Assembly (NCBI RefSeq): GCF_001513975.1
Contig: NZ_KQ947986.1
Span: 784,713-848,712 of the forward strand
DNA length: 64,000 bases
Direction of reading: 5' to 3'
Source of the DNA: Streptomyces curacoi
GTDB taxonomy: Bacteria > Actinomycetota > Actinomycetes > Streptomycetales > Streptomycetaceae
Part shown: one piece after another, positions 49,411-64,000 of the stretch
How positions within the stretch are numbered: position 1 is the stretch's first letter
Layout of the letters: the number at the start of each line of letters is the position of its first letter
The notes under the pieces: generated by a model
Told to the model about the DNA's origin: nothing
The model's input: the letters and a program-made list of their open reading frames with translations, nothing else
Databases searched by the model: none
Translations under genes and position numbers: made by a program

Positions 49411-50955
49411 TTACAGCTGGCGATGAGTGACCGATTTCGGATGTGGGTTCCCTGGACCCGTGCCGAGCTGCGGGACGTCGTCCGGGATCTTCACCTGCAC
49501 CGGTTCGTTGTTCGACTTGTTGTGCCACACCGCCCAGCCGGTCAGGGCGGTGTGGCAGGCGTGGTCGAGGTGACGCAGCCGCGACAGGTCGAGTTGGACG
49601 GGCCGGTCGCCGGGGAGGGCTTCGAGCGTGTCCAGGATTCGGGGCAGCCGCAGGAAAGTGGCGTTGCCGGTGATTCGGACGTGGATGGGGCCGGCCGCGC
49701 CGTCTTCGACGTGCACGTGGAGGCTGGAGGTTTCCCACGCGGTCTTGGCCACGGCCATCAGCAGCCCGAGCAGGACCCCTTCGAACATGTTCGTGACCAC
49801 GATCGCGATGGCGGTCACGGCCAGGACGACTGCCTCACCACGGTGGTCGCGCCACAGCGGTAGGAGTTCCCTGACCGGCATCAGCTTCGCGCCGGCATGG
49901 ACGAGCACGCCGGCGAGCGCCGCGATGGGGATGGCTTCGAGAGCGGCCGGGAACAGCGCCGCGAACAGCAGCAGCCACACCCCGTGCAGGACACGGGAAA
50001 GCTTGGTGCGGGCGCCGGCCTGGACGTTTGCGGCGCTGCGTACGATCACGGCCGTCATCGGCAGAGCGCCGAGCAGCCCGCAGACCGTGTTGCCCACGCC
50101 CTGGGCCATGAGTTCCTTGTCGTAGTCGGTGCGCGGACCGTCGTGCATCCGGTCCACCGCGGCCGCGCTGAAGAGGGACTCGGCGGAGGCGATGAGGGTG
50201 AAGGCGAGCACCGTGCCCAACAGTGCCACGTCACCGAGGTTGGACAGGGCACCGAGGGCGGGAGGTTGCACCGACTCGATCAGGCCCTGTACGTCCACCC
50301 TGGCGATGGGCAGGCCGAGGGCGGCGACAGCAGCGGTGGCGAGTGCGACGGTGGCAAGCGGTGCGGGCAGCACGTGCGGCAGGGGCCCGGGGAGGCGCTT
50401 CCACAAGATCAGCACGGCGATCGTCGCAGTACCCACCATGAACGTCACCAAGGCATCGGCGCTGAAGACAATGTCCCTTGTCAGTCCCGGCAGGCCGCTG
50501 ATCTTCCCCAGCCCGCTGCTCGGGGCTGTCAGATCTGCCATCGCGTACGCCTGTCCCAGGATGAGGACGAGGCCGATTCCGGCGAGCATGCCCTGCACCA
50601 CTGCGATGGAGATCGCACGGAACCAGCGGCCGCACCGCGCAGCACCCAGGACCAGCTGCAGTACGCCGGAGGCGAGCACGATCACCCCGAGCGCGGCGAG
50701 CCCGTGGGCCTCAACTGCCTCGTGGACAAGCACGGTCAGCCCGGCTGCCGGGCCACTGACCTGCAGTGAGCTGCCCGGCAGTACGCCTGCCACCAGGCCG
50801 CCGACGATGCCGGTGATCAAGCCGAGTTCGGCCGGCACCCCGGAGGCGACCGCGACACCGACGCACAGGGGCACAGCGACGAGGAAGACGACGAGCGAGG
50901 CGGTGACGTCGGGGAGAAGGAGGGACGGCCTCAGGGCAGGCAGTTTGAAGTGCAT
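49411..50955 (-). CDS. SulP-family inorganic anion transporter
   Basis: A protein of 514 residues from the ATG at 50955 (GAGGA upstream). Ten or more hydrophobic helices, starting DVTASLVVFLVAVPLCVGVA, with the SulP signature region GLITGIVGGLVAGVLPGSSL. The C-terminal 110 residues form a STAS domain (HVHVEDGAAGPIHVRITGNA, LDLSRLRHLDHACHTALTGW). Substrate is sulfate, bicarbonate or another anion; no carbonic anhydrase gene is adjacent. Its stop lies in the inverted repeat GTAAC-CAAGC-GTTAC (49400-49414). It is on the same strand as the biosynthetic operon downstream of asnB, but with a 142-bp gap. Confidence 0.87.
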   Translation of the reverse strand: MHFKLPALRPSLLLPDVTASLVVFLVAVPLCVGVAVASGVPAELGLITGIVGGLVAGVLPGSSLQVSGPAAGLTVLVHEAVEAHGLAALGVIVLASGVLQLVLGAARCGRWFRAISIAVVQGMLAGIGLVLILGQAYAMADLTAPSSGLGKISGLPGLTRDIVFSADALVTFMVGTATIAVLILWKRLPGPLPHVLPAPLATVALATAAVAALGLPIARVDVQGLIESVQPPALGALSNLGDVALLGTVLAFTLIASAESLFSAAAVDRMHDGPRTDYDKELMAQGVGNTVCGLLGALPMTAVIVRSAANVQAGARTKLSRVLHGVWLLLFAALFPAALEAIPIAALAGVLVHAGAKLMPVRELLPLWRDHRGEAVVLAVTAIAIVVTNMFEGVLLGLLMAVAKTAWETSSLHVHVEDGAAGPIHVRITGNATFLRLPRILDTLEALPGDRPVQLDLSRLRHLDHACHTALTGWAVWHNKSNNEPVQVKIPDDVPQLGTGPGNPHPKSVTHRQL

Positions 50956-51097: not shown

Positions 51098-52942
51098 TCA
51101 CAGGATCAGGCGTGGTCGGTAGGCCTCGATCCAGGTGTGCAGGTCCAGGAACTTCTCCAGGGCCGCTCGGTGGCCGTGGGGGTTGGGGTGATGTGTGGGG
51201 TCTTGGGAGGCGGCCTTCCTCGCTGCTGCTGGGTCGAACAGCAGGAAGACGTCGTGGTCGGGTTGGGCGAGGATCTGGCGAGCCTGGTCTTGCAGAGCGC
51301 AGACGTAACGTGGGTCGCGGGTCATGGGGTACGGGCTTTTGAGGCGTCTGAGCACGCTGTCCGGCACGACTGGTCGTGCGGCGGCCCGGAGCACGCTCTT
51401 CTCCCGATGGTCCGCGACATGGAACGGCCAGGGGATGTTGAAGGCGTATTCAGCGAGGCGGTGGTCGCAGAAGGGCACGCGCACTTCCAGCCCTACTGCC
51501 ATGCTGAGCCGGTCTTTGCGTTCCAGCATCCCGGCCAAGCTGTGTGTCAGATGGAGGTGGAGAAGTTCGCGTGAGCGGCGCTGTAGGGGGTTTTCGCCGT
51601 CGAGTGTCGGAGTACGTGCGAGGGACTGACGGTAGCTGTGATCGGCGTACCCGGGCATGTCCAGCGCCGCCGAAAGGTCGGGGGGCAGGAACGTGCGTTC
51701 CTGGCGTACTTGGCCAAGGGCTGCTGTCAGCCAGGGAAAGCCGTGGCCTTGGCGGAGGGCGGCGTCGTGGAACCACCAGTAGCCACCGAACATCTCGTCG
51801 GCGCCTTCGCCGGACAGCGCGACCGTTGAGTGTTCGCGTATGGCGGTGAACAGTTGGATCAGAGAGTGGTCCATGTCGCCGCGGCCGACCGGCAGGTCGC
51901 GAGCCCGTATGGCGGCCTGGCGAATCGAAGGGTCGGAGAGGTGTGCGGCGTCCAGCACCAGATCGGTGTGATCGGCGTCCAGGTGCTGGGCGACGGTGCG
52001 CACATACGGTGCGTCAGGACTGACATTGTGGGCGTCGCGGGCGAAGTGGTCGGCGTGTCCGCGGAAGTCCACCGAGAAGGTGCGCAGACTCTCATCGTGC
52101 GCACAGAGCTCGCTCGCCGCGAGTCCGGCGATGGCGCTCGAGTCGAGTCCACCGGACAGCAGCACGCACCGTGGCACGTCAGCCACGAGTTGCTCGCGTA
52201 CGGAGTTCGTGAGCAGTTCCCGAGTCCGGTGGACGGTGGTGGCGAAGTCGTCCGTGTGTGGACGGGCCGTCAGCCGCCAATAGGTGGTTTCCCGGACACC
52301 GCCGCGATCAACGGTCGCAAGGGAACCAGGCTGCAGTTCCCGCATACCGCGCCAGATGGCGACTCCGGGAGACTTGATTCCCAGCATGATTTCGCGCAGT
52401 CCGTCGTGGTCGACGGCGGCCTCGACGCTGGGATGGCTGAGGATGGCCTTGGGTTCGGAACCGAACAGTACTCCGTCAGCGGTGAGCGCGTAGTAGAGCG
52501 GCTTGATGCCCAGCCTGTCGCGGACCATGAGCAGGCGCTCGCTGCGGCCGTCCCAGATCGCGAAGGCGTACATGCCGATGAGGTGATCGACGAGACGGTC
52601 ACCCCACTCCAGGTAGGCGCGGAGTACTACTTCGGTGTCGCTCGCTGTGTGGAAAGGATGGCCGCGCCCCCGCAGGTACTGCCGCAGGGCGGTGAAGTTG
52701 TATGTCTCCCCGCTGTAAGTCATGACGATCGGGCCGTCGGCGGTCTCGACCGTCATCGGCTGGGCGCCGCCGTCGAGATCGATGATGGCCAGGCGCCGGT
52801 GGCCGAGGGCTGCGTGTCGACTGATCCAGACCGCGGATGCGTCCGGCCCTCGGGTGGCCACGGAGCGGGTCATGGCCTCCAGGGTCTCCCGGTGAGGCCT
52901 GAGGTCCGCGTCGAAGGCAATCCAGCCTGCAATGCCGCACAT
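51098..52942 (-). CDS. asnB: Asparagine synthetase (glutamine-hydrolysing), AsnB type
   Basis: A protein of 614 residues starting MCGIAGWIAF, so Cys2 is the glutaminase nucleophile. The N-terminal domain has RGPDASAVW and HRRLAIIDLDGGAQPM. The synthetase domain has the ATP pyrophosphatase loop VLLSGGLDSSAIAGLAAS and LSGEGADEMFGGYWW. It uses glutamine-derived ammonia to amidate a carboxylate through an adenylate. As the last gene of an operon with panD and oxidative enzymes it is more likely a pathway enzyme than housekeeping asparagine supply: it could amidate a chain end or form another amide. The substrate is inference. Confidence 0.88.
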   Translation of the reverse strand: MCGIAGWIAFDADLRPHRETLEAMTRSVATRGPDASAVWISRHAALGHRRLAIIDLDGGAQPMTVETADGPIVMTYSGETYNFTALRQYLRGRGHPFHTASDTEVVLRAYLEWGDRLVDHLIGMYAFAIWDGRSERLLMVRDRLGIKPLYYALTADGVLFGSEPKAILSHPSVEAAVDHDGLREIMLGIKSPGVAIWRGMRELQPGSLATVDRGGVRETTYWRLTARPHTDDFATTVHRTRELLTNSVREQLVADVPRCVLLSGGLDSSAIAGLAASELCAHDESLRTFSVDFRGHADHFARDAHNVSPDAPYVRTVAQHLDADHTDLVLDAAHLSDPSIRQAAIRARDLPVGRGDMDHSLIQLFTAIREHSTVALSGEGADEMFGGYWWFHDAALRQGHGFPWLTAALGQVRQERTFLPPDLSAALDMPGYADHSYRQSLARTPTLDGENPLQRRSRELLHLHLTHSLAGMLERKDRLSMAVGLEVRVPFCDHRLAEYAFNIPWPFHVADHREKSVLRAAARPVVPDSVLRRLKSPYPMTRDPRYVCALQDQARQILAQPDHDVFLLFDPAAARKAASQDPTHHPNPHGHRAALEKFLDLHTWIEAYRPRLIL

Positions 52943-53006: not shown

Positions 53007-53429
53007 TCAGTCGGTGAAGATGTGGTCGCCGCGGCAGGTGGTGCCATCTGGGGTGGCTTCGGCAGGGTCGGCCCCCAGGAGAACGACTCTGTTGTCGCTG
53101 TCCACATGGACGATCCGGGGAACGAGGAGGGCCGCTTCGGCGTCCAGGACTTGGGCGTAGGAGATGATGATGACGGTGTCGCCCGGGCTGATGAGCCGGG
53201 CTGCGGCTCCGTTGATGCCGACGACGCCGGTGCCCCGGGGACCCTCGATGATGTAGGTGGACAGTCGGTTGCCGTTGTCGATGTCGACGATGTCGACCTT
53301 TTCCCCGGGCAGCAGGTCCGCGGCCTCCATCAGGTCGGCGTCCAGAGTCAGTGATCCGACGTAGTGCAGGTCGGCCTGGGTGACGGTGGCGCGGTGCACC
53401 TTTGACTTGAACATGGAGCGGTAGTACAT
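53007..53429 (-). CDS. panD: Aspartate 1-decarboxylase (PanD), beta-alanine forming
   Basis: A protein of 140 residues starting [20 protein letters not shown], equal in layout to bacterial PanD. The self-cleavage site Gly25-Ser26 is in [10 protein letters not shown], producing the pyruvoyl cofactor. [20 protein letters not shown] and [20 protein letters not shown] complete the active site. It turns L-aspartate into beta-alanine. No panB or panC is present and it sits between asnB and an aldehyde dehydrogenase, so it probably supplies beta-alanine to the product of this cluster rather than to pantothenate. The C-terminal 15 residues extend beyond the usual end. Confidence 0.93.
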
Positions 53430-53498: not shown

Positions 53499-54917
53499 TC
53501 AGAGCTGGATCGCCTTGGTCTCCAGGAGTTCCTCCAGGCCGGCCCGGCCGCCCTCACGGCCGTTGCCGGACTGCTTGTAGCCGCCGAACGGTGCGTTGGG
53601 ATCGAAGGCCGACCCGTTGACCTGGATCTGACCGGCACGGAGTTCGCGGGCGACAGCCAGGGCGCGGTCCTCGTCCGCCGACCAGACCGCAGCGGCCAGG
53701 CCGTAGTTGGTGTTGTTCGCGATGCGGACGGCCTCGGCTTGCGTTTCGTACGTCTCGATGGCCAGCACCGGGCCGAACACCTCCTGGTGGTGGATGGCCA
53801 TGTCGCTGGTGACCCGGGACAGGATGGTGGGGCGGACGAAGAAGCCGCGGCTTGGCTCGGGAGGGGGCGCTTCTCCTCCGGTGACGAGCTTCGCTCCACT
53901 GGCCAGCGCGTTGCGGATATGCGTGCGCACCTGATGGCGCTGGGCAGAGGAGATCAGCGGTCCCAGCCGGGTCTGCTCGTGGCCGGGGTCGGCGGGCACC
54001 CATTCCCGGGCGCAGTGGCGTGCCAGTTCCTCCGTTTCTCCGAGTACGGAGCGTGGCACGATGAGTCGGGTGAGAGCCGAGCAGGTTTGGCCGTTGTTGA
54101 GGAATGAGGCTGCCAGCACGGCGGGGACGACGCGCGCGGGGTCGGCGTCGGGGAGCATCACTGCGGGGCTCTTGCCGCCCAGTTCCAGTGTCACTTTCTT
54201 GATCGTCTCAGCGGCCATGGATGCGACGCGGCGGCCCGCGCGCGTGGAACCGGTGAAGGAGACCACGTCGACCTCGGGGTGCGCGGCCAGCGCCTCCCCT
54301 ACATCGGGACCGGTGCCGCTGACGAGGTTGAAGACGCCGGGCGGCAAGCCGACGAAGTCGATGATGTCGGTCAGGTGCCAGACGCTGAGCGGTGCGAGTT
54401 CGCTGGGTTTCAGGACGACGGTGTTGCCGGCGGCCAGCGCGTAGGCGACCTTCGCGGCGACTTGGTGCAGGGGAAAGTTCCAGGGTGTGATGGCCGCAAC
54501 TACGCCGTAGGGCTCGCGCACGACCAGCGACGGCCCCTGGCGCTGTTCGAAGGGGTATGCCAGCGCGGTCTGCGCGGCCTGCAAGAAGCTGTTGACAGGC
54601 AGCGTGACCTGCACCGCCCGGGAGAAGGCGATCGGGCATCCGACGTCTTGTGTGATCAGCTGGGCCAGATCTCCCGCGCGGCGGGTCAGTTCCGCTGCGA
54701 TGGCCCGCAGGTAGCCGGCGCGTTCGGCCACGCCGGTACGCGACCAGGGGCCGAAGGCGGCACGGGCGGCGGTGACTGCGGCGTCCGCGTCCCGTGCTGT
54801 GCCGGCGGGCACTCGGGCCAGTGGCTGCTCGGTCGCCGGGTCGACAACGGTGAGCCTGGCTGGATTGTGCGACGGCGTCCAGGCGCCGTTGAGATAGATG
54901 CGGTCGTAGGCGGGCAC
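53499..54917 (-). CDS. NAD(P)-dependent aldehyde dehydrogenase
   Basis: A protein of 472 residues with GTG start. The active-site set is complete: Asn147 in ITPWNFPLHQ, Glu245 in VTLELGGKSPAVML, Cys279 in LNNGQTCSALTRL, and the cofactor loop FTGSTRAGRRVA. It oxidises an aldehyde to a carboxylic acid. It lies 69 bp upstream of panD in the leftward operon and could oxidise a terminal aldehyde made by the two flavin oxidases, or prepare a carboxylate for AsnB. The precise substrate is unknown. Confidence 0.9.
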   Translation of the reverse strand: MPAYDRIYLNGAWTPSHNPARLTVVDPATEQPLARVPAGTARDADAAVTAARAAFGPWSRTGVAERAGYLRAIAAELTRRAGDLAQLITQDVGCPIAFSRAVQVTLPVNSFLQAAQTALAYPFEQRQGPSLVVREPYGVVAAITPWNFPLHQVAAKVAYALAAGNTVVLKPSELAPLSVWHLTDIIDFVGLPPGVFNLVSGTGPDVGEALAAHPEVDVVSFTGSTRAGRRVASMAAETIKKVTLELGGKSPAVMLPDADPARVVPAVLAASFLNNGQTCSALTRLIVPRSVLGETEELARHCAREWVPADPGHEQTRLGPLISSAQRHQVRTHIRNALASGAKLVTGGEAPPPEPSRGFFVRPTILSRVTSDMAIHHQEVFGPVLAIETYETQAEAVRIANNTNYGLAAAVWSADEDRALAVARELRAGQIQVNGSAFDPNAPFGGYKQSGNGREGGRAGLEELLETKAIQL

Positions 54918-54955: not shown

Positions 54956-55906
54956 CTAGGCGGCGCAGTGGGCGCGCAGGGCGGCGGTGATGTCCTGGCG
55001 TGCCTGCTGTGCCGCGGTGAGCCAGGGCAGCAGGAAGAAGACGTGCAGCGCGCCGTTGTAGCGCTGTGTCGTGGCGGTCACGTGGCTGCTCCGCAGACGC
55101 CGGGCGTACTCCTCCGCTTCATCTCTGAGCGGGTCGCATTCGGCGGTGAGGATCAGCGCCGGCGGGAGTCCGGCATGGTCTTCGGCGAGCAGGGGGGAGG
55201 CGTAGGGGTTGACCGCTTCCTCGGGGGAGGGCAGGTAGAGGTTCCAGAAGTGGTCCATGGAGGCACGGGTGTTGAGATGGCCCGTGGCGTACTGGTCGTA
55301 GGAGGGGAAGGGGGGATCGCCTGCGGGGGCGAGAGGGGGGCAGATGAGCACTTGCAGGTCGATGTGCGGACCGCCGCGGTCTCTGGCCATGAGGCAGGCG
55401 GCAGCTGCCAGATTCCCTCCGGCGCTCTCTCCCGCGATGACCAGCCGTCCGTCCGCCCCCAACTCCTTGGTCCGCACGGCCAGGGCCTTGACGGCGGCGT
55501 AGGCGTCCTCGGCGGGTCCGGGGAAGCGGGTCTCGGGAGCGCGTCGGTATTCGACACTGGCCACCACGGCGCCGGTGGCGTTGGCGAGGCTCCGCAGCGG
55601 TGTGTCGAGCAGTTCGACATCTCCGGCGATCCAGCCCCCGCCGTGGAAGAACACCATCAGCGGACGGGGACGTCCGGGCTGCTGGACGGGCATATAGACA
55701 CGGACGGGCAGCAGCCCCGCGGGGCCGGGTATGTGGGTCTCGGTAATCTTTTCCACGGTCTCGGCAGGGCCTTGGGCCTGCCTGAGGCCGCTCATGAGTT
55801 CACGGGTGGTGGGTACGCCGACCTGGTCGAAAGGCGGCATACGCTGTTCTGCCACACGATCGAGGAAGGCAGCGGCCTGCGGGTGCAACGGCACAGCGAC
55901 TCCCAT
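54956..55906 (-). CDS. Alpha/beta hydrolase, hormone-sensitive-lipase type
   Basis: A protein of 316 residues with the HSL-family oxyanion motif HGGGW (88-92, in LMVFFHGGGWIAGD), nucleophile Ser161 in IAGESAGGNLAAAA, acid in TAECDPLRDEAEEY, and His in YNGALHVFFLLPW. No signal peptide. Such enzymes cleave small esters or lactones. In this operon, next to a Baeyer-Villiger-type monooxygenase, a natural role is hydrolysing the ester the monooxygenase makes; that is inference. Confidence 0.88.
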   Translation of the reverse strand: MGVAVPLHPQAAAFLDRVAEQRMPPFDQVGVPTTRELMSGLRQAQGPAETVEKITETHIPGPAGLLPVRVYMPVQQPGRPRPLMVFFHGGGWIAGDVELLDTPLRSLANATGAVVASVEYRRAPETRFPGPAEDAYAAVKALAVRTKELGADGRLVIAGESAGGNLAAAACLMARDRGGPHIDLQVLICPPLAPAGDPPFPSYDQYATGHLNTRASMDHFWNLYLPSPEEAVNPYASPLLAEDHAGLPPALILTAECDPLRDEAEEYARRLRSSHVTATTQRYNGALHVFFLLPWLTAAQQARQDITAALRAHCAA

Positions 55907-55993: not shown

Positions 55994-57460
55994 TCAGCCG
56001 CCCGGCTGGTAGTGCGCCAGGTTCACCCGCCTCGTACGGCGTCGGTACTCCGTGGTCTGACCAGGCCAGTTGGTGGTGACGTGTTCGTTCGTTCCCCGGT
56101 ACCAGTTGCGGCAGGTGGCCCACACCGTGCCGCTCAGACGTCGGCGCATCTCGGCGGTGAAGCTCGCCTCGGTCTCGGGCCGGACCTCGAGGTGCCTGCG
56201 CCTTCCCCTCCTGATCAGGCGCAGGGCGTCGATGATGTAGCGGATCTGGCTTTCGACCATGTAGACGACCGAGCCGGCACCGACGTTCGTGTGCGGGCCG
56301 TACAGCAGGAACATGTTGGGGAAGCCGGGGACGGTCATCCCGAGGTGAGCCCGTGCGCCGTCTCGCCAGGTGTCGGACAGTACGCGGCGGCCACGGCCTG
56401 TGATCCGCAAGGACGCGAGGAAGTTGGTGGCGCAGAATCCCGTGGCGTAGATGATGGCGTCAACCCGGTGTTCCGCCCCTCTCCCGGTGCGGACGCCGTG
56501 TTCGGTGATCTCACTGATCGTGTCGGTGACCAGTTCGACGTGGGGCCGGTTGAAGGTCGGATAGTAGTCGCTCGAGATGCCGATCCTCTTGCAGCCCACC
56601 TCGTCCTGGGGCGTGAGGCGCTCGCGGACGGACGGGTCGTGGACCTGTCGCTCCAGTTGGGCGGCGCAGCCATAGGAGGTCAGGCGGCTGATCGGCCAGC
56701 GGCGGGTCAGGCCGGGTACCGCCGACTCGTTGAACAGCCACCACCCGAGTCGTGCCGCTTTGCCGGCGAGCCGGCCGACACCGGCCGAGCGACGGCGGTA
56801 GGCACGGTCCCAGCGCGGCACGATGTAGGGCGCTGAACGCTGAAATACCGTCAGGTGCGCTGCTTGCGCGGCGACCTGGGGGACGATCTGTATGGCGCTC
56901 GCTCCGGTCCCGATGACCGCGACCCTACGGCCGCGCAGGTCGTAGCTGTGGTCCCAGCGCGCGGAGTGAAAGGACTTGCCGGTGAAGCGGTCGGCGCCGG
57001 GGATGTCGGGGTAGAACGGTTGGTTCAGCTGACCGCATGCCGGGACGAGGACGTCCGCTTCGAGAATCTCCCCCGTCCCGGTGCGCACCCGCCAGCGCCC
57101 TGCGCCCTCGTCGAAATCCGCCCGGCGGACTTCCGTCCCGAGCCGCAGGTGCTCGTCGAGGCCGTGCTTGTCGGCGCAGCCGCGCAAATAGTCGAGGATC
57201 TCCCGCTGGCCGGCGTAGCGCTGGGTCCAGTTATGGGGTTCGAAGGAATACGAATACAGGTGAGCGGGGATGTCGCACGCCGCGCCCGGATAGGTGTTGT
57301 CCCGCCACACCCCGCCGATGTCGTCGGCCTTCTCCAGGATGGTGAAGTGGTGATGGCCGCTTCGCTTGAGGGCCATGCCCAGGCCCAGGCCGCTCAGCCC
57401 GGCCCCGACGATGAGCACGTGGGGAACGTCGTTCCGGCGGCGTGGGGGCCGGCGGATCAT
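55994..57460 (-). CDS. Flavin monooxygenase, Baeyer-Villiger type
   Basis: A protein of 488 residues from the ATG at 57460, which overlaps the stop of the upstream oxidase gene (ATGA). FAD motif VLIVGAGLSGLGLGMAL, then GVWRDNTYPGAACDIPAHLY, the Baeyer-Villiger fingerprint F159-T-G-x3-H165-x3-W169 and the second Rossmann motif VAVIGTGASAIQIVPQVA. Group members insert oxygen next to a carbonyl, giving esters or lactones, using NADPH and O2. The hydrolase gene that follows could open the product. Confidence 0.9.
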   Translation of the reverse strand: MIRRPPRRRNDVPHVLIVGAGLSGLGLGMALKRSGHHHFTILEKADDIGGVWRDNTYPGAACDIPAHLYSYSFEPHNWTQRYAGQREILDYLRGCADKHGLDEHLRLGTEVRRADFDEGAGRWRVRTGTGEILEADVLVPACGQLNQPFYPDIPGADRFTGKSFHSARWDHSYDLRGRRVAVIGTGASAIQIVPQVAAQAAHLTVFQRSAPYIVPRWDRAYRRRSAGVGRLAGKAARLGWWLFNESAVPGLTRRWPISRLTSYGCAAQLERQVHDPSVRERLTPQDEVGCKRIGISSDYYPTFNRPHVELVTDTISEITEHGVRTGRGAEHRVDAIIYATGFCATNFLASLRITGRGRRVLSDTWRDGARAHLGMTVPGFPNMFLLYGPHTNVGAGSVVYMVESQIRYIIDALRLIRRGRRRHLEVRPETEASFTAEMRRRLSGTVWATCRNWYRGTNEHVTTNWPGQTTEYRRRTRRVNLAHYQPGG

Positions 57461-58854
57461 GACGCCTCGCCGGACGCTGGAGGGATGTTGTGGTTGAACC
57501 GCAGCACGTTGTGGGGGTCGTACTGGGCCTTGACCTCGGACAGGCGTGCCAGCCGGTGGTCGTTCCAGAAGGCGCGGACACGGTCGGTGTCGTCGTCTTC
57601 GGAGGTCGTGTTCAGGTAGGTGTTGCCGGAGCCGAAGGTCTTCAGCATCGTTCCCACGTTCTTCACCCAGGTGCGGCAACGATCGGAGTCCGCCTCGTCC
57701 TTCCACTGGCAGATCACGTGGATCAGCCAGCTGTCCTCACGATGCGCGAACGCCGTGGCGTCAGGGGGCACGTCGGTCGCTGCCGTGTCGAAGGGGTGGA
57801 TGTTGACGGTGGTGAGCGAGGAGGGCAGATCGCTGCCGATGGCGGCGAGGACGGCGATCTCCTCGGTGCCCATGCGGGGCAGGAACTCGCTGGTCCAGTA
57901 ATGGAGATTGCCGGCCGGGGTGAAGGTGTCGAGCATGGACTGCACCGCCACGAGCGGCATCGGGCCGATGCTGTCATAGAGCGGACCACCGTACTCCCGA
58001 AGAGGCCTGACGGCCTCCCATGCCTCTTCCATCGGCCCGAAGTAGCGCACGAACAGCGTGATCAGCGGCACGCCGTGGAAGGCCTCGGGCACGAAGTCCG
58101 CCGCGGGAGCGTGGATGAACAGGGCGTCCGCGCTGAGATGCGCCGGGCTGGTGGCGCTGAAGTCCCGCAAGAACGCGAGAACCTCCTCCGCCTGGTCGAC
58201 CGGGTGCGCCAGGAATCCCGCCAGCATGGTCGGGCCGACCGGGTGGGCGCGGAACTCGAAAGAGGTGACCACGCCGAAGTTCCCGCCGCCCCCACGCAGT
58301 GCCCAGAACAGTTCCGGATGGCTGTCGGCGCTCGCCGTCACCAGCTCGCCGTCCACGGTGACCATGTCGGCGGACAGGAGGTTGTCGCACGTCAGCCCGT
58401 ACTTGTGGAGCATCATGCCCACGCCGCCGTTGAGGGTGAGTCCCGCGATGCCGGTCTCTGACATCTGTCCGGTGGGGATGGCGAGGCCGTGCAGCTGCGT
58501 CTCGCGGTCCACGTCTGCGAGCAGTGCGCCGCCCTGGACCCGCACCGTGCGGCGCACCGGGTCGACGTGGACACCCCGCATGCGGGAGAGGTCGATGACC
58601 AGGCCGCCGTCGCACGTACCGTGACCTGCGACGCTGTGTCCGCCGCCGCGGACGGCGATCAGCAGCCCCTCCTCGCGGGCGAAGCGGATCGCCTGGACGA
58701 CGTCGGCAGTGCCCAGGCATCGCGCGATAGCCGCCGGGCGCTTGTCGATCATGGCGTTGTAGACCCGGCGCGCGGTGTCGTAGCCGGCGTCTGCAGGCCT
58801 GAGAACCTCGCCGAGCAGCGCGCCGCGCAGGCGATCGAGCGCATCATTGTTCAT
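57457..58854 (-). CDS. FAD-linked oxidase of the berberine-bridge-enzyme type, bicovalent flavin
   Basis: A protein of 465 residues. PCMH-type FAD domain: His73 in AVRGGGHSVAGHGTC and Cys156 in KYGLTCDNLLSADM are the two flavin-attachment residues, so FAD should be bicovalent. The substrate domain follows, ending with the BBE signature YDPHNVLRFNHNIPP. Enzymes of this group oxidise alcohols, sugars or polyketide intermediates with O2. No signal peptide. It is translationally coupled to the monooxygenase gene. Confidence 0.9.
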   Translation of the reverse strand: MNNDALDRLRGALLGEVLRPADAGYDTARRVYNAMIDKRPAAIARCLGTADVVQAIRFAREEGLLIAVRGGGHSVAGHGTCDGGLVIDLSRMRGVHVDPVRRTVRVQGGALLADVDRETQLHGLAIPTGQMSETGIAGLTLNGGVGMMLHKYGLTCDNLLSADMVTVDGELVTASADSHPELFWALRGGGGNFGVVTSFEFRAHPVGPTMLAGFLAHPVDQAEEVLAFLRDFSATSPAHLSADALFIHAPAADFVPEAFHGVPLITLFVRYFGPMEEAWEAVRPLREYGGPLYDSIGPMPLVAVQSMLDTFTPAGNLHYWTSEFLPRMGTEEIAVLAAIGSDLPSSLTTVNIHPFDTAATDVPPDATAFAHREDSWLIHVICQWKDEADSDRCRTWVKNVGTMLKTFGSGNTYLNTTSEDDDTDRVRAFWNDHRLARLSEVKAQYDPHNVLRFNHNIPPASGEAS

Positions 58855-58897: not shown

Positions 58898-59395
58898 TCA
58901 CTTTCGGGCGATGACGGACGTCGTCGCGGCGGGTTCCACAGCGCGCTTTCCCTTGTTCTGCCTTCGGTTCTCCAGGAATTCCACGAATGCGTGGTGCATG
59001 CCGTCCGGGATCTTTGTCAGCACGCCGCGCTCGGGGTCGACAAAGGCGTGGACGGTCCGGGCCTCGGCGATAAGTTGACCGCCGCGTTTCCGGTAGATCT
59101 CGTAATAGTAGGTCAGGGTGCCCGGAGTGGCCGCCCAGGTCTTGACCACGAGATCGTCCAGATATTTTGCCGCAGCGTGGTACCGGACCTGCAGATCGGT
59201 CGTCGCGATCTGGTACTTGCGGTAATCGGCGCCGATGTCCAGGGCGAATTTCTCCCGCCCCAGATCGAACCACGGGATGTAGCTGGCGTAGTAGGCGTGT
59301 CCCTGCAGGTCGCACTCCCCCCACCGGACCCGGACCGTGGCCTCTACGTTGACGTCGCGCATGATGTTGGTCGCGGACTGCACTAGACGCGGCAT
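58898..59395 (-). CDS. Hot-dog fold acyl-CoA/acyl-ACP thioesterase
   Basis: 165 residues from the ATG at 59395; the longer frame to 59509 is unlikely because GGGAGG lies before the shorter start. The 4-hydroxybenzoyl-CoA thioesterase pattern is visible: VRVRWGECDLQGHAYYASYI with Asp29, then QVRYHAAAKYLDDLVVKTWA and TYYYEIYRKRGGQLIAEART. It is the first gene of the leftward operon and faces the chain-building operon, so it is the natural candidate to release the finished acyl chain from the carrier protein. Confidence 0.85.
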   Translation of the reverse strand: MPRLVQSATNIMRDVNVEATVRVRWGECDLQGHAYYASYIPWFDLGREKFALDIGADYRKYQIATTDLQVRYHAAAKYLDDLVVKTWAATPGTLTYYYEIYRKRGGQLIAEARTVHAFVDPERGVLTKIPDGMHHAFVEFLENRRQNKGKRAVEPAATTSVIARK

Positions 59396-59742
59396 GTTTC
59401 GTTGATCCTCCCGAACGCGCGGGCGCTTTACCGGCATGAAATCCTGCGCCATCCACCACGGGCCGGCCTGCCCGAATGCCAAGAACGCTAGGAATTGACC
59501 AGGCAGCACGTCAATCGCCGAACTCGAATATTTCCAGTTTCTTTCAAATCTTTCAGCACTGTTTCGGCATATTCAGCGACCGCGCGTGACGCTGACCAGG
59601 ATCTTACGCTGCCATTGACCCGGCGAGAATGCCCCCATAAGGTCATCCCGACCGAAGGGGAATTACTCACTTTTCGGCTCGGCCTCGGCCTATCAAGCAG
59701 TCCATTCCTATCGCCTTCCGGTGAAGAGGCGGAGAGTATGCC
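59396..59742. promoter_or_regulatory. Divergent promoter region of the biosynthetic cluster (347 bp)
   Basis: No credible gene. The segment 59500-59700 is clearly A/T-richer than anything nearby (AATATTTCCAGTTTC, GGCATATTCAGC, TTACTCACTTTTCGG), as expected for promoters of the two divergent operons. I see no clean operator palindrome. Confidence 0.55.
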
Positions 59743-60189
59743 ATGCTAATTTCGGATGCGGTCCGGAGAATTCCGGCGCACCTGCAATCGGCCGGTGTGG
59801 ACCTAGTGGACCTGGCGCGCTTCGAGCGGGCCGTGGACCGCTGCGGGGACTCACTGGCGTTTCGGTACTTCACAGCGCACGAACGCCGGATTGCCAAGGA
59901 ATGGGCCACGGAGGAGCGGTCCGCCGCTGAGGTCCTCGCTCACTTCTTCGGAGTGAAGGAAAGCGTCGTCAAGCTGATGGGGGGCCTTCCCGCCGCCGGC
60001 CGACTGGCCGATATCTCTGTGGCCGTCCCGGACGGCGGCTGGGGCTCGGAGCACTGGACAGTGCACCTGAGCGGTCCGCTGGCCCCATGGTCCCGGTCCG
60101 ACCACGGGATCGTGGGTGCCTCAGCCCGGCTGGAGGATGGTCTGGCGCTCGCTTGGGCCGCGGCTCCCAGCGAGGGTGGGGCGCCATGA
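59743..60189 (+). CDS. AcpS-type 4'-phosphopantetheinyl transferase
   Basis: A protein of 148 residues with the AcpS signatures: AGVDLVDLARFERAVDR (metal-binding Asp20) and AHFFGVKESVVKLMGG (Glu73 and Lys77), then SGPLAPWSRSDHGIVGASAR. It moves phosphopantetheine from CoA to the Ser of a carrier protein, here most likely Ser54 of the ACP encoded at 61969. It is the first gene of the rightward operon and overlaps the next gene by ATGA. Being inside the cluster, it is probably dedicated rather than the primary AcpS. Confidence 0.85.
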   Translation: MLISDAVRRIPAHLQSAGVDLVDLARFERAVDRCGDSLAFRYFTAHERRIAKEWATEERSAAEVLAHFFGVKESVVKLMGGLPAAGRLADISVAVPDGGWGSEHWTVHLSGPLAPWSRSDHGIVGASARLEDGLALAWAAAPSEGGAP

Positions 60190-61181
60190 CCTCGAGCACC
60201 GCCTTCGTCTTTCCCGGGCAAGGCAGCCAGTTCCCGGGGATGGGTCATGAGCTGTTCCGATTGGGCCCACAGGCCAAGGCCCTCGCCGACAGAGCCGAAG
60301 AGGTCACGGGTCTGCCTGTGATCGAGCTGATGACGCGTGCTGACGCCGCGACGCTCGCCGATCCGGAGCTCGCCCAAGTACTCGTCCTGGTCTGGTCGCT
60401 GGCGGCGCTGGAGCGGCTACGTCAAGCAGGCTGGCGGCCGAGCGCTGTCGCCGGTCACAGCCTGGGGGAATACACCGCACTCGTGGCCTGCGGCAGTCTT
60501 GACACCGACACCGCGCTGTCACTGGTGGCCTGCCGGGGCAAGGCGATGGCGCACGCCGCACGCAGCCGGCCAGGCGGTATGGCGGCCATCGTCGGACTCG
60601 CCTCGCAGGAAGTACAGGCACTGTGCACGCAGGCCTCGACGGGGAACGAGATCGCCGTCATCGCCAACTGGAACTCACCTCGCCAACTGGTTGTGGCCGG
60701 CACCGTCCAAGGGGTCGACCACGTCGTTCGGGCGGCGACCCGCGCCGGGGCCTTGAGAGCCCGTCGGCTGGCCGTCGGGGGTGGTTACCACTCCCCGCTC
60801 ATGAACGACGCCCACGGCCGCCTGGCGGGCCTTCTGGCCACCGTCCCACTCGGCAACCCATCCATTCCGTTCGTCTCCAGCACCACCGGCAGCCACATCA
60901 CCGACATCCACACGTACCGCAGCAACCTGCAGGCACAGGTGATCTCACCGGTCCGCTGGAGCGACACAGTTCAGGCCCTGGGCACACTCGGCGCCACCAC
61001 CTACATCGAGGCGGGCCCCGGCCGGGTACTGAGCGGCCTCGGTCGTGAAATGGCTCGCGCCGCCCGGCACTTGGGGACCTGGGAAGCCCTGCGTCATGCG
61101 ATGCCGGCAGACATCGCCCGCGGCCCGGACGACGGAAAGCGTCCGGTCGCCACCGCCCTCCACCGAAGGAACGCGACGTGA
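60186..61181 (+). CDS. fabD: Malonyl-CoA:ACP transacylase (FabD-like)
   Basis: A protein of 331 residues. VFPGQGSQFPGMGHEL at the N-terminus, nucleophile Ser92 in VAGHSLGEYTALVACG, Arg in VACRGKAMAHAA, His in VGGGYHSPLMNDAH, and the closing YIEAGPGRVLSGLGREM. It loads malonyl units on the ACP. Malonyl versus methylmalonyl choice cannot be decided with certainty. It overlaps both neighbours by four bases, so it is tightly coupled. Confidence 0.92.
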   Translation: MTSSTAFVFPGQGSQFPGMGHELFRLGPQAKALADRAEEVTGLPVIELMTRADAATLADPELAQVLVLVWSLAALERLRQAGWRPSAVAGHSLGEYTALVACGSLDTDTALSLVACRGKAMAHAARSRPGGMAAIVGLASQEVQALCTQASTGNEIAVIANWNSPRQLVVAGTVQGVDHVVRAATRAGALRARRLAVGGGYHSPLMNDAHGRLAGLLATVPLGNPSIPFVSSTTGSHITDIHTYRSNLQAQVISPVRWSDTVQALGTLGATTYIEAGPGRVLSGLGREMARAARHLGTWEALRHAMPADIARGPDDGKRPVATALHRRNAT

Positions 61182-61924
61182 GTGAACTCAAGGGGCAGAT
61201 CGTACTGGTTACCGGAGCCACCAAGGGCATCGGCCTCGCGGTGGCGACCGAGCTGGCCCGCTGCGGCGCCACTGTCCTGATGAACCACCGCGGCAAGCCG
61301 GAACAGGCCCTCGACGCTCTGGAGCAGGTGCGAGAGATCAGCCAGGATGCCCACCTGCTGCGGGCCGACATCGCCGACGCCTCCGACGTAGAGCGCATGT
61401 TCCGGCAGATCAGAGCCGATCACGGACGGCTCGACGCCTTCGTCAACAACGCAGGCATCACCCTGGACGGCTACGCGCTCATGATGGGCGAGGCGAAGTG
61501 GCGCAAGGTCATCGACACCAACCTCACCGGCGCATTCCTGTGTACGCGGGCCGCCGCCCGGCTCATGGCCCGCAGACGCACCGGGTCGATCGTCACCGTC
61601 AGCTCGACGAGCGCCCTGAGCCCCCCGGCGGGCCAGGCCAACTATGCGGCCGCCAAAGCCGGCGGCATCGCCCTGACGAAGGCACTCGCCAAGGAACTGG
61701 GCTCCTACGGCATCCGAGTGAACTGCGTGATCCCCGGCTTCATCGATACCTCGATGACCCGTCAGATGCCACCCGAACGCCTTGAGGAGAACCTCCGGCA
61801 TGTCCCCCTCGGCCGCATCGGCCGACCCGAAGAGGTCGCCTCCGTCGTGAAGTTCCTCCTCAGCGATGCGTCCACGTACGTGACCGGATCGTCGGTCGTC
61901 GTCGACGGAGGCCTCGTCTGCTGA
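61178..61924 (+). CDS. fabG: 3-oxoacyl-ACP reductase (FabG-like ketoreductase)
   Basis: A protein of 248 residues, GTG start in a GTGA overlap. VTGATKGIGLAVATEL, NNAG in DAFVNNAGITLDGY, active-site Ser in VTVSSTSALS, Tyr-Lys in QANYAAAKAGGIALT, ending VVVDGGLVC. It reduces 3-ketoacyl-ACP to 3-hydroxyacyl-ACP with NADPH. Together with the FabZ-type dehydratase at 62253 it gives enoyl chains; no enoyl reductase is visible in the window. Confidence 0.92.
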   Translation: MSELKGQIVLVTGATKGIGLAVATELARCGATVLMNHRGKPEQALDALEQVREISQDAHLLRADIADASDVERMFRQIRADHGRLDAFVNNAGITLDGYALMMGEAKWRKVIDTNLTGAFLCTRAAARLMARRRTGSIVTVSSTSALSPPAGQANYAAAKAGGIALTKALAKELGSYGIRVNCVIPGFIDTSMTRQMPPERLEENLRHVPLGRIGRPEEVASVVKFLLSDASTYVTGSSVVVDGGLVC

Positions 61925-61968: not shown

Positions 61969-62256
61969 ATGGTGATGACACTCAACGAAGCGACCCGCCG
62001 GGCGGCGGCTCGCCAGGAACTCTGCGCGCAGGTCAAGATCCTGCTGGTCGACCGCCTCTCGCTGGACGTCGACCCGGGCTCGATCGGGGACGACCAACCG
62101 CTCTTCGGCCGCGGCCTTGAGCTCGACTCCATCGACACCCTCGAACTGGCCATGGCGGTAGAGGACACCTTCGGTGTCACCGTCACCGACGACGACACCC
62201 ACAGCCTGCTGTCGCTGAACCGGCTGGTAGATCACATCGAGAGGGCTCGGGCATGA
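61969..62256 (+). CDS. Acyl carrier protein
   Basis: 95 residues. Helix I, then FGRGLELDSIDTLELAMAVE with the phosphopantetheine Ser54 in the DS(I)D motif, then the acidic helix III (VTVTDDDTHSLLSLNRLVDH). The start is the ATG at 61969 (AGGAGACAGAC upstream); ATG 61975 is possible. It is slightly longer than FAS ACPs at the N-terminus, as many PKS ACPs are. Its TGA overlaps the start of the dehydratase gene. Confidence 0.92.
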   Translation: MVMTLNEATRRAAARQELCAQVKILLVDRLSLDVDPGSIGDDQPLFGRGLELDSIDTLELAMAVEDTFGVTVTDDDTHSLLSLNRLVDHIERARA

Positions 62257-62750
62257 CCGCAGCGCCTTCCTCGCCGTCGGCACGCGTGGTGCTCAACGCC
62301 GACGACATCGCCCGAATGCTGCCGCACCGCCACCCGTTCTTCCTGCTGGACCGTGTCACGGCCCTCGAACCCGGCAAGAGCGCCGAGGCCATCAAGAACG
62401 TCACGGCCTCCGACGGCGTGTTGGCCGGCCATTTCCCCGGCCGCATGCTCTACCCGGGAGTCCTGCTCGTCGAATGCGTCGCACAGCTCGCGGCCGTCAT
62501 CTACGGCAGCGCCGCCGCGCAGGCGTCCACCGGTGACCTGGTGGCCGATGTCGCCGACCGAGTCGGCTACCTCGCCGAGATCCGCCAAGCCAAGTTCCTC
62601 AAACCGGTCGTCCCCGGAGACCAGGTCGTCTTCCGAGCCCACAGCGGCCCACGACTGGCCGGACTGATCTCGGTATCCGGCCAGGCATCGGTCGGTCGGG
62701 AGCTGGTCATGACCGCCCGACTGGCCGTCACCGAACTCGACCAGCCGTAG
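62253..62750 (+). CDS. fabZ: 3-hydroxyacyl-ACP dehydratase, FabZ/FabA hot-dog type
   Basis: A protein of 165 residues. IARMLPHRHPFFLLDRVTAL with the catalytic His, and GHFPGRMLYPGVLLVECVAQ with the catalytic acidic residue (Glu in LVECVAQ). It removes water to give trans-2-enoyl-ACP. Repeated use without an enoyl reductase would give a conjugated polyene. Confidence 0.9.
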   Translation: MTAAPSSPSARVVLNADDIARMLPHRHPFFLLDRVTALEPGKSAEAIKNVTASDGVLAGHFPGRMLYPGVLLVECVAQLAAVIYGSAAAQASTGDLVADVADRVGYLAEIRQAKFLKPVVPGDQVVFRAHSGPRLAGLISVSGQASVGRELVMTARLAVTELDQP

Positions 62751-62847: not shown

Positions 62848-63867
62848 ATGAAGACTCGCTTCACCACCACGGACGAGGAGTACGCGGCCCTGCGCCGCAA
62901 CACGGGCCTCATCCACTACCAGGGCGCAGGGCTGCTCACGGTGACCGGACCCGAGGCCGCCGGCTTTCTCGGCCGGGTCGGGACACGCAGCATCGACTTC
63001 CTGCTCGAGGGCCAGAGCACGGCCTCGCTACTGCTCCGCGAAGACGGCACCATCATCGCCGAAACGCTCATCCATTGCTGGGGCACCGACTACCTCGTGG
63101 AGATCTGGCCTGCCCAGGCGACCGAGGCCACGGCCCACCTGCTCGCGGCGGCGGACGGATTCGCTGACGTCACCGTCGAGGATGTCAGCGAGGCCTACAC
63201 CATCCTCGGCTTGGAGGGCCCTTCCTCCTTCAAGATGGCCCAGAAGTACCTCGACTTCCCCATCGCCTCCCTCGCCTATCGCAGCTGCGCCGCTGTTGAG
63301 TGGGGTGGCGAAGCAGTGACCCTGTCGCGGACCGGGATCACCGGCGAATACGGCTACAAGTTCATCGTCCCGTCCGCCGGTGCCCCCAGGCTGCGGGCCG
63401 AACTCCTGGAACTGGGGGCTGTCGAGTGCGGTAAGGACGCGCTCGACATCTGCCGCATGGAGGTCCGCTTCGCCGGCCTCGAACACGAGCACGCCGGTGG
63501 ACCGATCACCCCTTTCGATGTGGGTCTGCAGTGGATGCTCGACACTGGCCAGGACTTCGTCGGCCGGGAAGCCCTGGAGCAGCGCAGCCGCCATGGGGGC
63601 AGGTCCCCGGTGTGCTGGGTCGCCGACGCCGCTCTGGAAACCGCACCTGCCCGCGGGACCGCGATCGCGGTCAGTGACGCGGAGATCGGCATCGTGACGC
63701 ACTGCGTCTGGTCCCCCACGCTGGCCCGGCACATCGGTACTGCCGTGGTCGACCCCGCGGTGGCGGCCTCCGGGCAGGAGTTCCAGCTCGCCGGCACTGC
63801 CATGACAGTGCGCACCATCTCCGCGCCCTTCCTGACGGCGACCAGCCTCGCCGTACCCCTCGACTGA
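62848..63867 (+). CDS. GcvT-like (aminomethyltransferase-fold) folate-dependent protein
   Basis: A protein of 339 residues. It shows the T-protein layout: RNTGLIHYQGAGLLTVTGPE, YTILGLEGPSSFKMAQKYLD, LSRTGITGEYGYKFIVPSAG, DALDICRMEVRFAGLEHEHA and WMLDTGQDFVGREALEQRSR. These domains bind tetrahydrofolate. No other glycine-cleavage genes are near, so it is a pathway enzyme, not the GCV T-protein. It may transfer a one-carbon unit or demethylate an intermediate. It lies between the dehydratase and ketosynthase genes in the same operon. Confidence 0.82.
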   Translation: MKTRFTTTDEEYAALRRNTGLIHYQGAGLLTVTGPEAAGFLGRVGTRSIDFLLEGQSTASLLLREDGTIIAETLIHCWGTDYLVEIWPAQATEATAHLLAAADGFADVTVEDVSEAYTILGLEGPSSFKMAQKYLDFPIASLAYRSCAAVEWGGEAVTLSRTGITGEYGYKFIVPSAGAPRLRAELLELGAVECGKDALDICRMEVRFAGLEHEHAGGPITPFDVGLQWMLDTGQDFVGREALEQRSRHGGRSPVCWVADAALETAPARGTAIAVSDAEIGIVTHCVWSPTLARHIGTAVVDPAVAASGQEFQLAGTAMTVRTISAPFLTATSLAVPLD

Positions 63868-63929: not shown

Positions 63930-64000
63930 ATGAGTCCCAACAAGCGGCGAGAAGTCAGCGTCGCCGTCACCGGTGTCGGCATCACGTGCGCGCTCGGCAA
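63930..64000 (+). CDS. Beta-ketoacyl synthase, start only (runs off the right edge)
   Basis: Only 23 codons are present: MSPNKRREVSVAVTGVGITC then ALG. VAVTGVGITCALG is the standard N-terminus of FabF/KS-alpha proteins (VVVTGLGxxxxxG). AACAGGAGAAGACAGC before the ATG is a good ribosome site. It is most likely the elongating ketosynthase of the cluster; whether a chain-length-factor partner follows cannot be seen. Confidence 0.82.
   Translation, partial: MSPNKRREVSVAVTGVGITCALG

Follow-up and report, generated by a model that had tools for sequence, protein, structure and literature searches.

Why should a lone gene with the fold of the glycine-cleavage T protein lie between the dehydratase and ketosynthase genes of an operon for carrier-bound chain assembly? 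The question is raised by a stretch of 64,000 nucleotides from Streptomyces curacoi (contig NZ_KQ947986.1, positions 784,713 to 848,712 of the forward strand), referred to below as the window. A preliminary description had proposed that the product of this gene, here named P0001, might add or remove a one-carbon unit on an ACP-bound or beta-alanine-derived intermediate.

The gene and its operon

The following features of the window are considered, with positions given in window coordinates.

51098 to 52942, minus strand: AsnB-like hydroxyamidotransferase-type amide synthetase (start taken as the Met before Cys, residue 56 of the listed ORF)
53007 to 53429, minus strand: aspartate 1-decarboxylase PanD (beta-alanine), a variable tailoring or supply gene
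53499 to 54917, minus strand: aldehyde dehydrogenase, Streptomyces version
54956 to 55906, minus strand: alpha/beta hydrolase, Streptomyces version
55994 to 57706, minus strand: FMO/Baeyer-Villiger-like monooxygenase, Streptomyces version (true start probably near 57460, judged by eye)
57457 to 58854, minus strand: berberine-bridge-enzyme-like (BBE) FAD oxidase, Streptomyces and Kribbella versions
58898 to 59509, minus strand: 4HBT-type thioesterase (start codon uncertain)
59743 to 60189, plus strand: first AcpS-like phosphopantetheinyl transferase
60186 to 61181, plus strand: FabD-like malonyl/acyl transferase (AT; the ORF opens at 60087, with 60186 the likelier start by eye)
61178 to 61924, plus strand: FabG-like ketoreductase KR1
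61969 to 62256, plus strand: discrete acyl carrier protein (ACP)
62253 to 62750, plus strand: FabZ-like dehydratase (DH) of the hot-dog type, core neighbour
62848 to 63867, plus strand: GcvT-fold protein P0001, apparently without the canonical folate site (339 aa, ATG start, open frame)
63930 to 64000, plus strand: 5' part of the gene for a fused KS-CLF of 822 aa, the rest lying beyond the window (L005:8643-11111)

Past the KS-CLF gene, outside the window, another AcpS-like frame is followed by a further SDR and an exporter of the DHA2 type.

Pfam assigns P0001 to the T-protein fold with both domains above cut-off, GCV_T at 134.5 bits (5e-39) and GCV_T_C at 36.8 bits (3.7e-9), and neither GcvH nor GcvP could be recognised when the neighbours were scanned with Pfam and NCBIfam models. 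The picture of a lone T-protein-fold gene between dehydratase and ketosynthase genes is thus borne out by the open frame, the domain matches and the neighbour scan. The protein nevertheless falls far below the NCBIfam equivalog and subfamily cut-offs for GcvT itself (150.8 against 300; 106.9 against 235.85). It also misses the equivalog cut-offs for DmdA, LigM/DesA and TMAO demethylase (38.7 against 410, 32.4 against 800, 19.7 against 580 and 93.4 against 1100), so that the cut-offs of these NCBIfam demethylase models (DMSP, syringate, vanillate and TMAO) lie far above its scores; a YgfZ model was absent from its eight NCBIfam hits.

The solved relatives that best match P0001 are 1wos, 1yx2 and 3a8i, all of the GcvT fold and aligned over the whole length. 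The AlphaFold2 model obtained from an eight-row alignment (pLDDT 56.9; fair for most of residues 8-203 and unreliable beyond about residue 203) likewise retrieves 1wos in Foldseek (E 5.6e-16, TM 0.54), and a single-sequence AlphaFold2 prediction, with a pLDDT of 37, was unusable. Because the model is weak, the folate pocket was read from sequence alignment rather than from coordinates. Three GcvT-fold paralogues occur elsewhere in the S. curacoi genome, and the sole GcvH match of the genome lies on contig C16, adjoining another GcvT paralogue. The scan of the cluster proteins revealed no further folate or glycine gene. No RNA family, and hence no glycine riboswitch, reached its cut-off between positions 50000 and 64000 of the window. 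The GcvT fold likewise serves other chemistry in TMAO demethylase, DmdA, LigM/DesA and the alpha subunit of sarcosine oxidase; to our knowledge, no demethylase or sarcosine-oxidase relative of GcvT has been tied to a PKS.

The surrounding genes have the features of a reducing type II PKS, namely a KS with an intact active site and a CLF partner, together with discrete ACP, KR, DH and AT. The motifs ACAAG, HGTGT and GHMLG are all present in the KS half of the fused protein. The CLF half (L005:8643-11111) keeps an active-site-like Cys574 (GCASG at 573) and has no HGTGT motif. In the PKS core, no enoyl reductase was recognised. The ishigamide, skyllamycin and ADEP1 systems share the discrete ACP, KR and DH with KS-CLF and the lack of a recognised core enoyl reductase; however, here KS and CLF are fused in one gene and the core holds an extra GcvT-like protein. 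The accessible part of one account of reducing type II PKS names the components without a GcvT (PMC11446937). The cispentacin machinery (AmcB, E, F, G and H) is also related, as the KS half passes the AmcF model (360.5, cut-off 325) and the DH and ACP are weak hits of AmcE and AmcB. However, FabF scores higher on the KS half (579), and the models of the AmcE-type decarboxylase and the AmcB ACP remain below cut-off (81.9 against 140 and 33.9 against 80), and a cispentacin-type cyclopentane pathway was therefore rejected. The cispentacin machinery, too, is named without a GcvT in the accessible part of its source (PMC10698177). A sponge swf cluster, as far as the accessible text of its source goes, shares merely the word aminomethyltransferase and was set aside as well. 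In the literature covered, which leaves most subscription journals outside, no paper on a GcvT-like protein in a PKS operon was recognised, and such a protein in a PKS core seemingly has not been described.

The minus-strand genes give some indication of the product of the Streptomyces version. From end to end, the AsnB-like protein aligns with 7ylz, a hydroxyamidotransferase of known structure (677 bits), and for this reason a carboxamide or hydroxamate is the likely product. A hydroxyamidotransferase of the AsnB-like type is reported to act on a free acid (PMC13418202), and the acid released in the Streptomyces version is probably amidated by the AsnB-like protein; no amidooxygenase partner for it was recognised among the scanned proteins.

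In the Streptomyces and Kribbella versions, the core is bordered by two small AcpS-like proteins (59743-60189 and L005:11074-11670). Of these, the first retains GVDLVD and KES, both N-terminal motifs, and the second resembles only the C-terminal part, so the two may be one split phosphopantetheinyl transferase. In Priestia, the first is present, and a small protein in place of the second has no detectable similarity to it.

Distribution and the constant core

The family of P0001 as gathered here has 40 rows, the window included and 39 of them distinct, from Streptomyces, Kribbella, two other actinobacterial families (f89 and f113) and a Priestia megaterium plasmid. The gene order ACP, dehydratase, GcvT-like, KS-CLF is found in all 40. 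Co-occurrence with discrete FabG/FabZ/ACP operons, which the preliminary description had put forward as a check, is thus strongly supported, across Actinomycetota and Bacillota plasmids; KR is present in each of the 15 rows (of 40) checked for it. By tblastn, ACP and DH precede the GcvT-like gene and KS-CLF follows it, all on one strand, in 36 of 36 loci, among which L007, L008, L050, L051 and L095 repeat loci of L035-L041 and L001 is the window itself. Seven loci emerged from scanning named genomes, and the same arrangement of ACP, DH, GcvT-like and KS-CLF was found in L035-L041 by tblastn and in Priestia by annotation and tblastn.

The gene is rare. With P0001 as query, it was found in 3 of 297 Streptomycetaceae genomes (E <= 1e-50, own genome included). 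A nine-row profile (E <= 1e-60) matched in seven genomes at either rank, out of 392 for the genus and 394 for the class, the own genome being counted in both. When searches were centred on the members found later, the family of K. albertanoniae gave matches in 3 of 38 genomes, f89 in 17 of 200 and f113 in 8 of 100, the last two together amounting to 25 of 300 sampled. In a phylum sample (E <= 1e-30), 17 of 396 genomes matched, all but the window's own with scores of 107-122 bits. These genome counts are lower bounds, since the searches sample genomes and score a limited number of candidates in each.

Among plasmid records, eight matches were obtained: four Priestia megaterium plasmids, two Listeria records and two Haloterrigena records. 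The Listeria and Haloterrigena matches, at 26-27% identity, three annotated as gcvT and one without an annotated feature, look like ordinary GcvT. A search with laxer limits returned 185 plasmid records, 181 of them under 60% identity. Relatives of the KS-CLF gave a match in 328 plasmid records; around six of them picked for inspection (five fused, one split), no GcvT-like gene was found within roughly 10 kb in both directions.

A tree of 34 rows unites the 15 family rows known at that stage in one clade (100/100) against 19 other GcvT-fold proteins. In the KS-CLF tree, which leaves out the split pair L049, the GcvT-linked rows are not firmly united (two changes; one change in 24% of bootstrap trees). 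Five comparisons by the NG86 method gave dN/dS values of 0.23-0.39 for the GcvT-like gene, indicating purifying selection, and values of 0.125-0.27 for DH, KR and KS-CLF (one KS-CLF value missing); the GcvT-like gene thus evolves faster than its neighbours. Purifying selection and the same direct neighbours in 40/40 rows argue that the gene is there by more than chance.

A comparison across lineages separates the core from the tailoring genes. AT, KR, ACP, DH, the GcvT-like protein and KS-CLF occur in all nine non-Streptomyces sets scanned (three Kribbellaceae, Priestia L042 and five from f89 and f113), and the second Priestia plasmid, L043, agrees on the core gene set. Around this core, the Streptomyces versions add AsnB, PanD, aldehyde dehydrogenase, hydrolase, FMO and BBE (with AsnB beyond the stretch for L037-L039), and the Kribbella versions keep BBE and the thioesterase. 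The Priestia plasmid runs in the order SDR, thioesterase, PPTase, AT, FabG, ACP, FabZ, GcvT-like, KS-CLF, small protein and exporter; BBE was not found there. A 4HBT thioesterase is shared by the Streptomyces, Kribbella and Priestia versions. In the five f89 and f113 regions, no homologues of AsnB, PanD, FMO, BBE or 4HBT were recognisable; the f89 region L070 holds amino-sugar and glycosyl-transfer genes, an aklavinone-hydroxylase-like oxygenase and a SnoaL-like protein. Because the core is constant while the tailoring genes differ, the GcvT-like protein looks like part of chain assembly rather than of tailoring. The regions L070-L074 represent a further type of cluster built around this core, and several families of L070 have homologues in the other four.

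The same comparison bears on the supposed link to beta-alanine, which does not hold generally. In the Streptomyces loci, panD does lie beside the cluster, but tblastn found none in the stretches of Priestia, K. catacumbae, genome G705 and five f89 and f113 genomes. In Kribbella, PanD occurs in only one of three stretches of 50-55 kb, beside an NRPS; in this stretch, from K. albertanoniae, panD lies about 9 kb from the GcvT-like gene. An ishigamide-like beta-alanine amide, suggested by panD and AsnB, was accordingly rejected as an explanation of the GcvT-like protein, as neither gene belongs to the conserved core. A sarcosine-oxidase-like pairing of BBE with GcvT was likewise discarded, since Priestia and the five f89 and f113 regions have the GcvT-like gene without BBE.

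Residues of the folate cleft

The 40 family rows were aligned with 19 GcvT-fold references from the own genome and phylum, presumed to be folate enzymes, and columns were tied to the E. coli structure 3a8i via the genome's own GcvT. At the column of the catalytic or folate Asp, E. coli Asp97 (T. maritima Asp96), the residue altered in the solved D97N T protein of E. coli (3a8k), Asp is found in 19/19 references and in 0/40 family rows (Gln 23, Glu 15, Ile 1, Ser 1). The Glu195 column has Glu in 19/19 references against 0/40 (Lys 24, Gln 16), the Arg223 column Arg in 17/19 against 0/40 (Leu 34, Val 5, His 1) and the Tyr101 column Tyr in 17/19 against 2/40 (Phe 16, His 14, Trp 8). The columns of T. 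maritima Tyr83 and Tyr188, which we take to be folate neighbours, keep Tyr in 19/19 and 18/19 references against 0/40 and 3/40 family rows. Several polar side chains of the former folate cleft are now mostly Leu, Val, Phe, Met or Ser. Arg223, Tyr101 and Glu195 of E. coli GcvT are described as THF contacts in PMC12560246, and D95, E189 and Y221 of SesA, a protein outside the family alignment, are named in folate binding in PMC5547118.

Judged from these columns, the canonical folate site seems to have been lost in the family. P0001 is like the glycine-cleavage T protein in fold, over its whole length, and in the RTGxTGE motif, of which the family keeps Arg and Glu; it differs in that none of the rows retains the folate Asp, Glu or Arg, and very few the Tyr. 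TMAO demethylase (Tdm) also lacks the folate Arg, and THF slightly lowers its formaldehyde release, as reported (PMC12560246); some folate binding can therefore survive one loss. Tdm, however, keeps the folate Glu in the alignment, which the GcvT-like family does not; according to PMC5547118, all BrdA retain the folate Glu of SesA.

New residues are fixed in the family. Tyr12, Glu123, Tyr168, Arg207 and Trp229 are invariant in 40/40 rows and Asp232 in 39/40. Arg207 stands where all 19 references have Gly, Glu123 where 17/19 have Gln, and Tyr168 is found at its column in 0/19 references.

Possible role in chain assembly

In the T protein, folate sits in a central cleft, and the substrate arrives on the swinging lipoyl arm of the H protein. 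By analogy, we infer that the GcvT-like protein would act on the ACP-held chain. The fixed neighbourhood, the replaced folate residues and the constant core make a folate-independent core component of the PKS probable. The fuller reading that we prefer, to which the sequence comparisons lend about an even chance, is that a T-protein fold without its canonical folate site belongs to the core machinery of a reducing type II PKS and works on the chain held by ACP. Since the folate side chains are replaced, an Arg and a Lys or Gln are fixed, and ACP is the constant partner, a cleft that holds and shapes an ACP-bound, partly unsaturated chain appears the likeliest function. In such a scheme, the phosphopantetheine arm of ACP would enter the fold as the lipoyl arm of the H protein does, and the growing unsaturated chain would occupy the former folate cleft with its new fixed Arg. 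The GcvT-like protein might then position, isomerise or cyclise the chain ahead of release, which in the Streptomyces, Kribbella and Priestia versions would fall to the 4HBT thioesterase.

On this preferred reading, the cluster would represent a new variant of reducing type II PKS in which a T-protein fold has been put to another use. It would add a core part, seemingly undescribed, to polyketide synthases that occur in 25 of the 300 genomes sampled from two actinobacterial families and on Priestia plasmids, and would illustrate the re-use of a widespread folate enzyme for carrier-bound chemistry. A bolder proposal, possible rather than probable, is that the fold has given rise to acyl-ACP catalysts of a new class, which cyclise or isomerise a chain lying in folate's place; such an enzyme would be essential to the core in one subclass of reducing type II PKS and would have spread horizontally between Actinomycetota and Bacillota plasmids.

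A non-catalytic scaffold, tying ACP, DH and KS-CLF together or steadying the fused KS-CLF, is the alternative that survives best, though it is unlikely. It is in keeping with the strict adjacency of the GcvT-like gene to KS-CLF and with the loss of the T-protein Asp, and the faster evolution of the gene would also suit a non-catalytic role. However, the invariant polar residues Tyr12, Glu123, Tyr168 and Arg207 and the nearly invariant Asp232 exceed what we would expect of a scaffold, and the six plasmid relatives of KS-CLF exist without the GcvT-like gene.

Somewhat more doubtful is a one-carbon enzyme, in which folate bound in an altered mode would give a methylene or hydroxymethyl group to an ACP-bound enolate, leading to an exomethylene or branched product. 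The retained fold and the Arg and Glu of RTGxTGE agree with this, T proteins do take substrates on carrier arms, and without such a role the presence of a solitary GcvT in a PKS operon would call for an explanation. Against it, the Asp97, Glu195 and Arg223 columns are changed throughout and Tyr101 in 38/40 rows, while the references keep Asp and Glu in 19/19, and neither a further folate or glycine gene nor a glycine riboswitch was recognised in the regions scanned. The one-carbon chemistry of the preliminary description is thus unsupported, since 40/40 rows have other residues at the positions which, in known members, bind tetrahydrofolate.

A housekeeping paralogue or YgfZ-type iron-sulphur factor, in the operon by chance and unlinked to such clusters elsewhere, would fit the three paralogues of the genome but is very improbable, given the rarity of the gene, its PKS operon in every checked locus, its separate clade and the missing YgfZ model.

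The plasmid pBM500 of Priestia megaterium (L042:10813-20673) carries a compact version of the whole core in about eleven genes. It offers a convenient minimal system in which function and product would be quickly testable.
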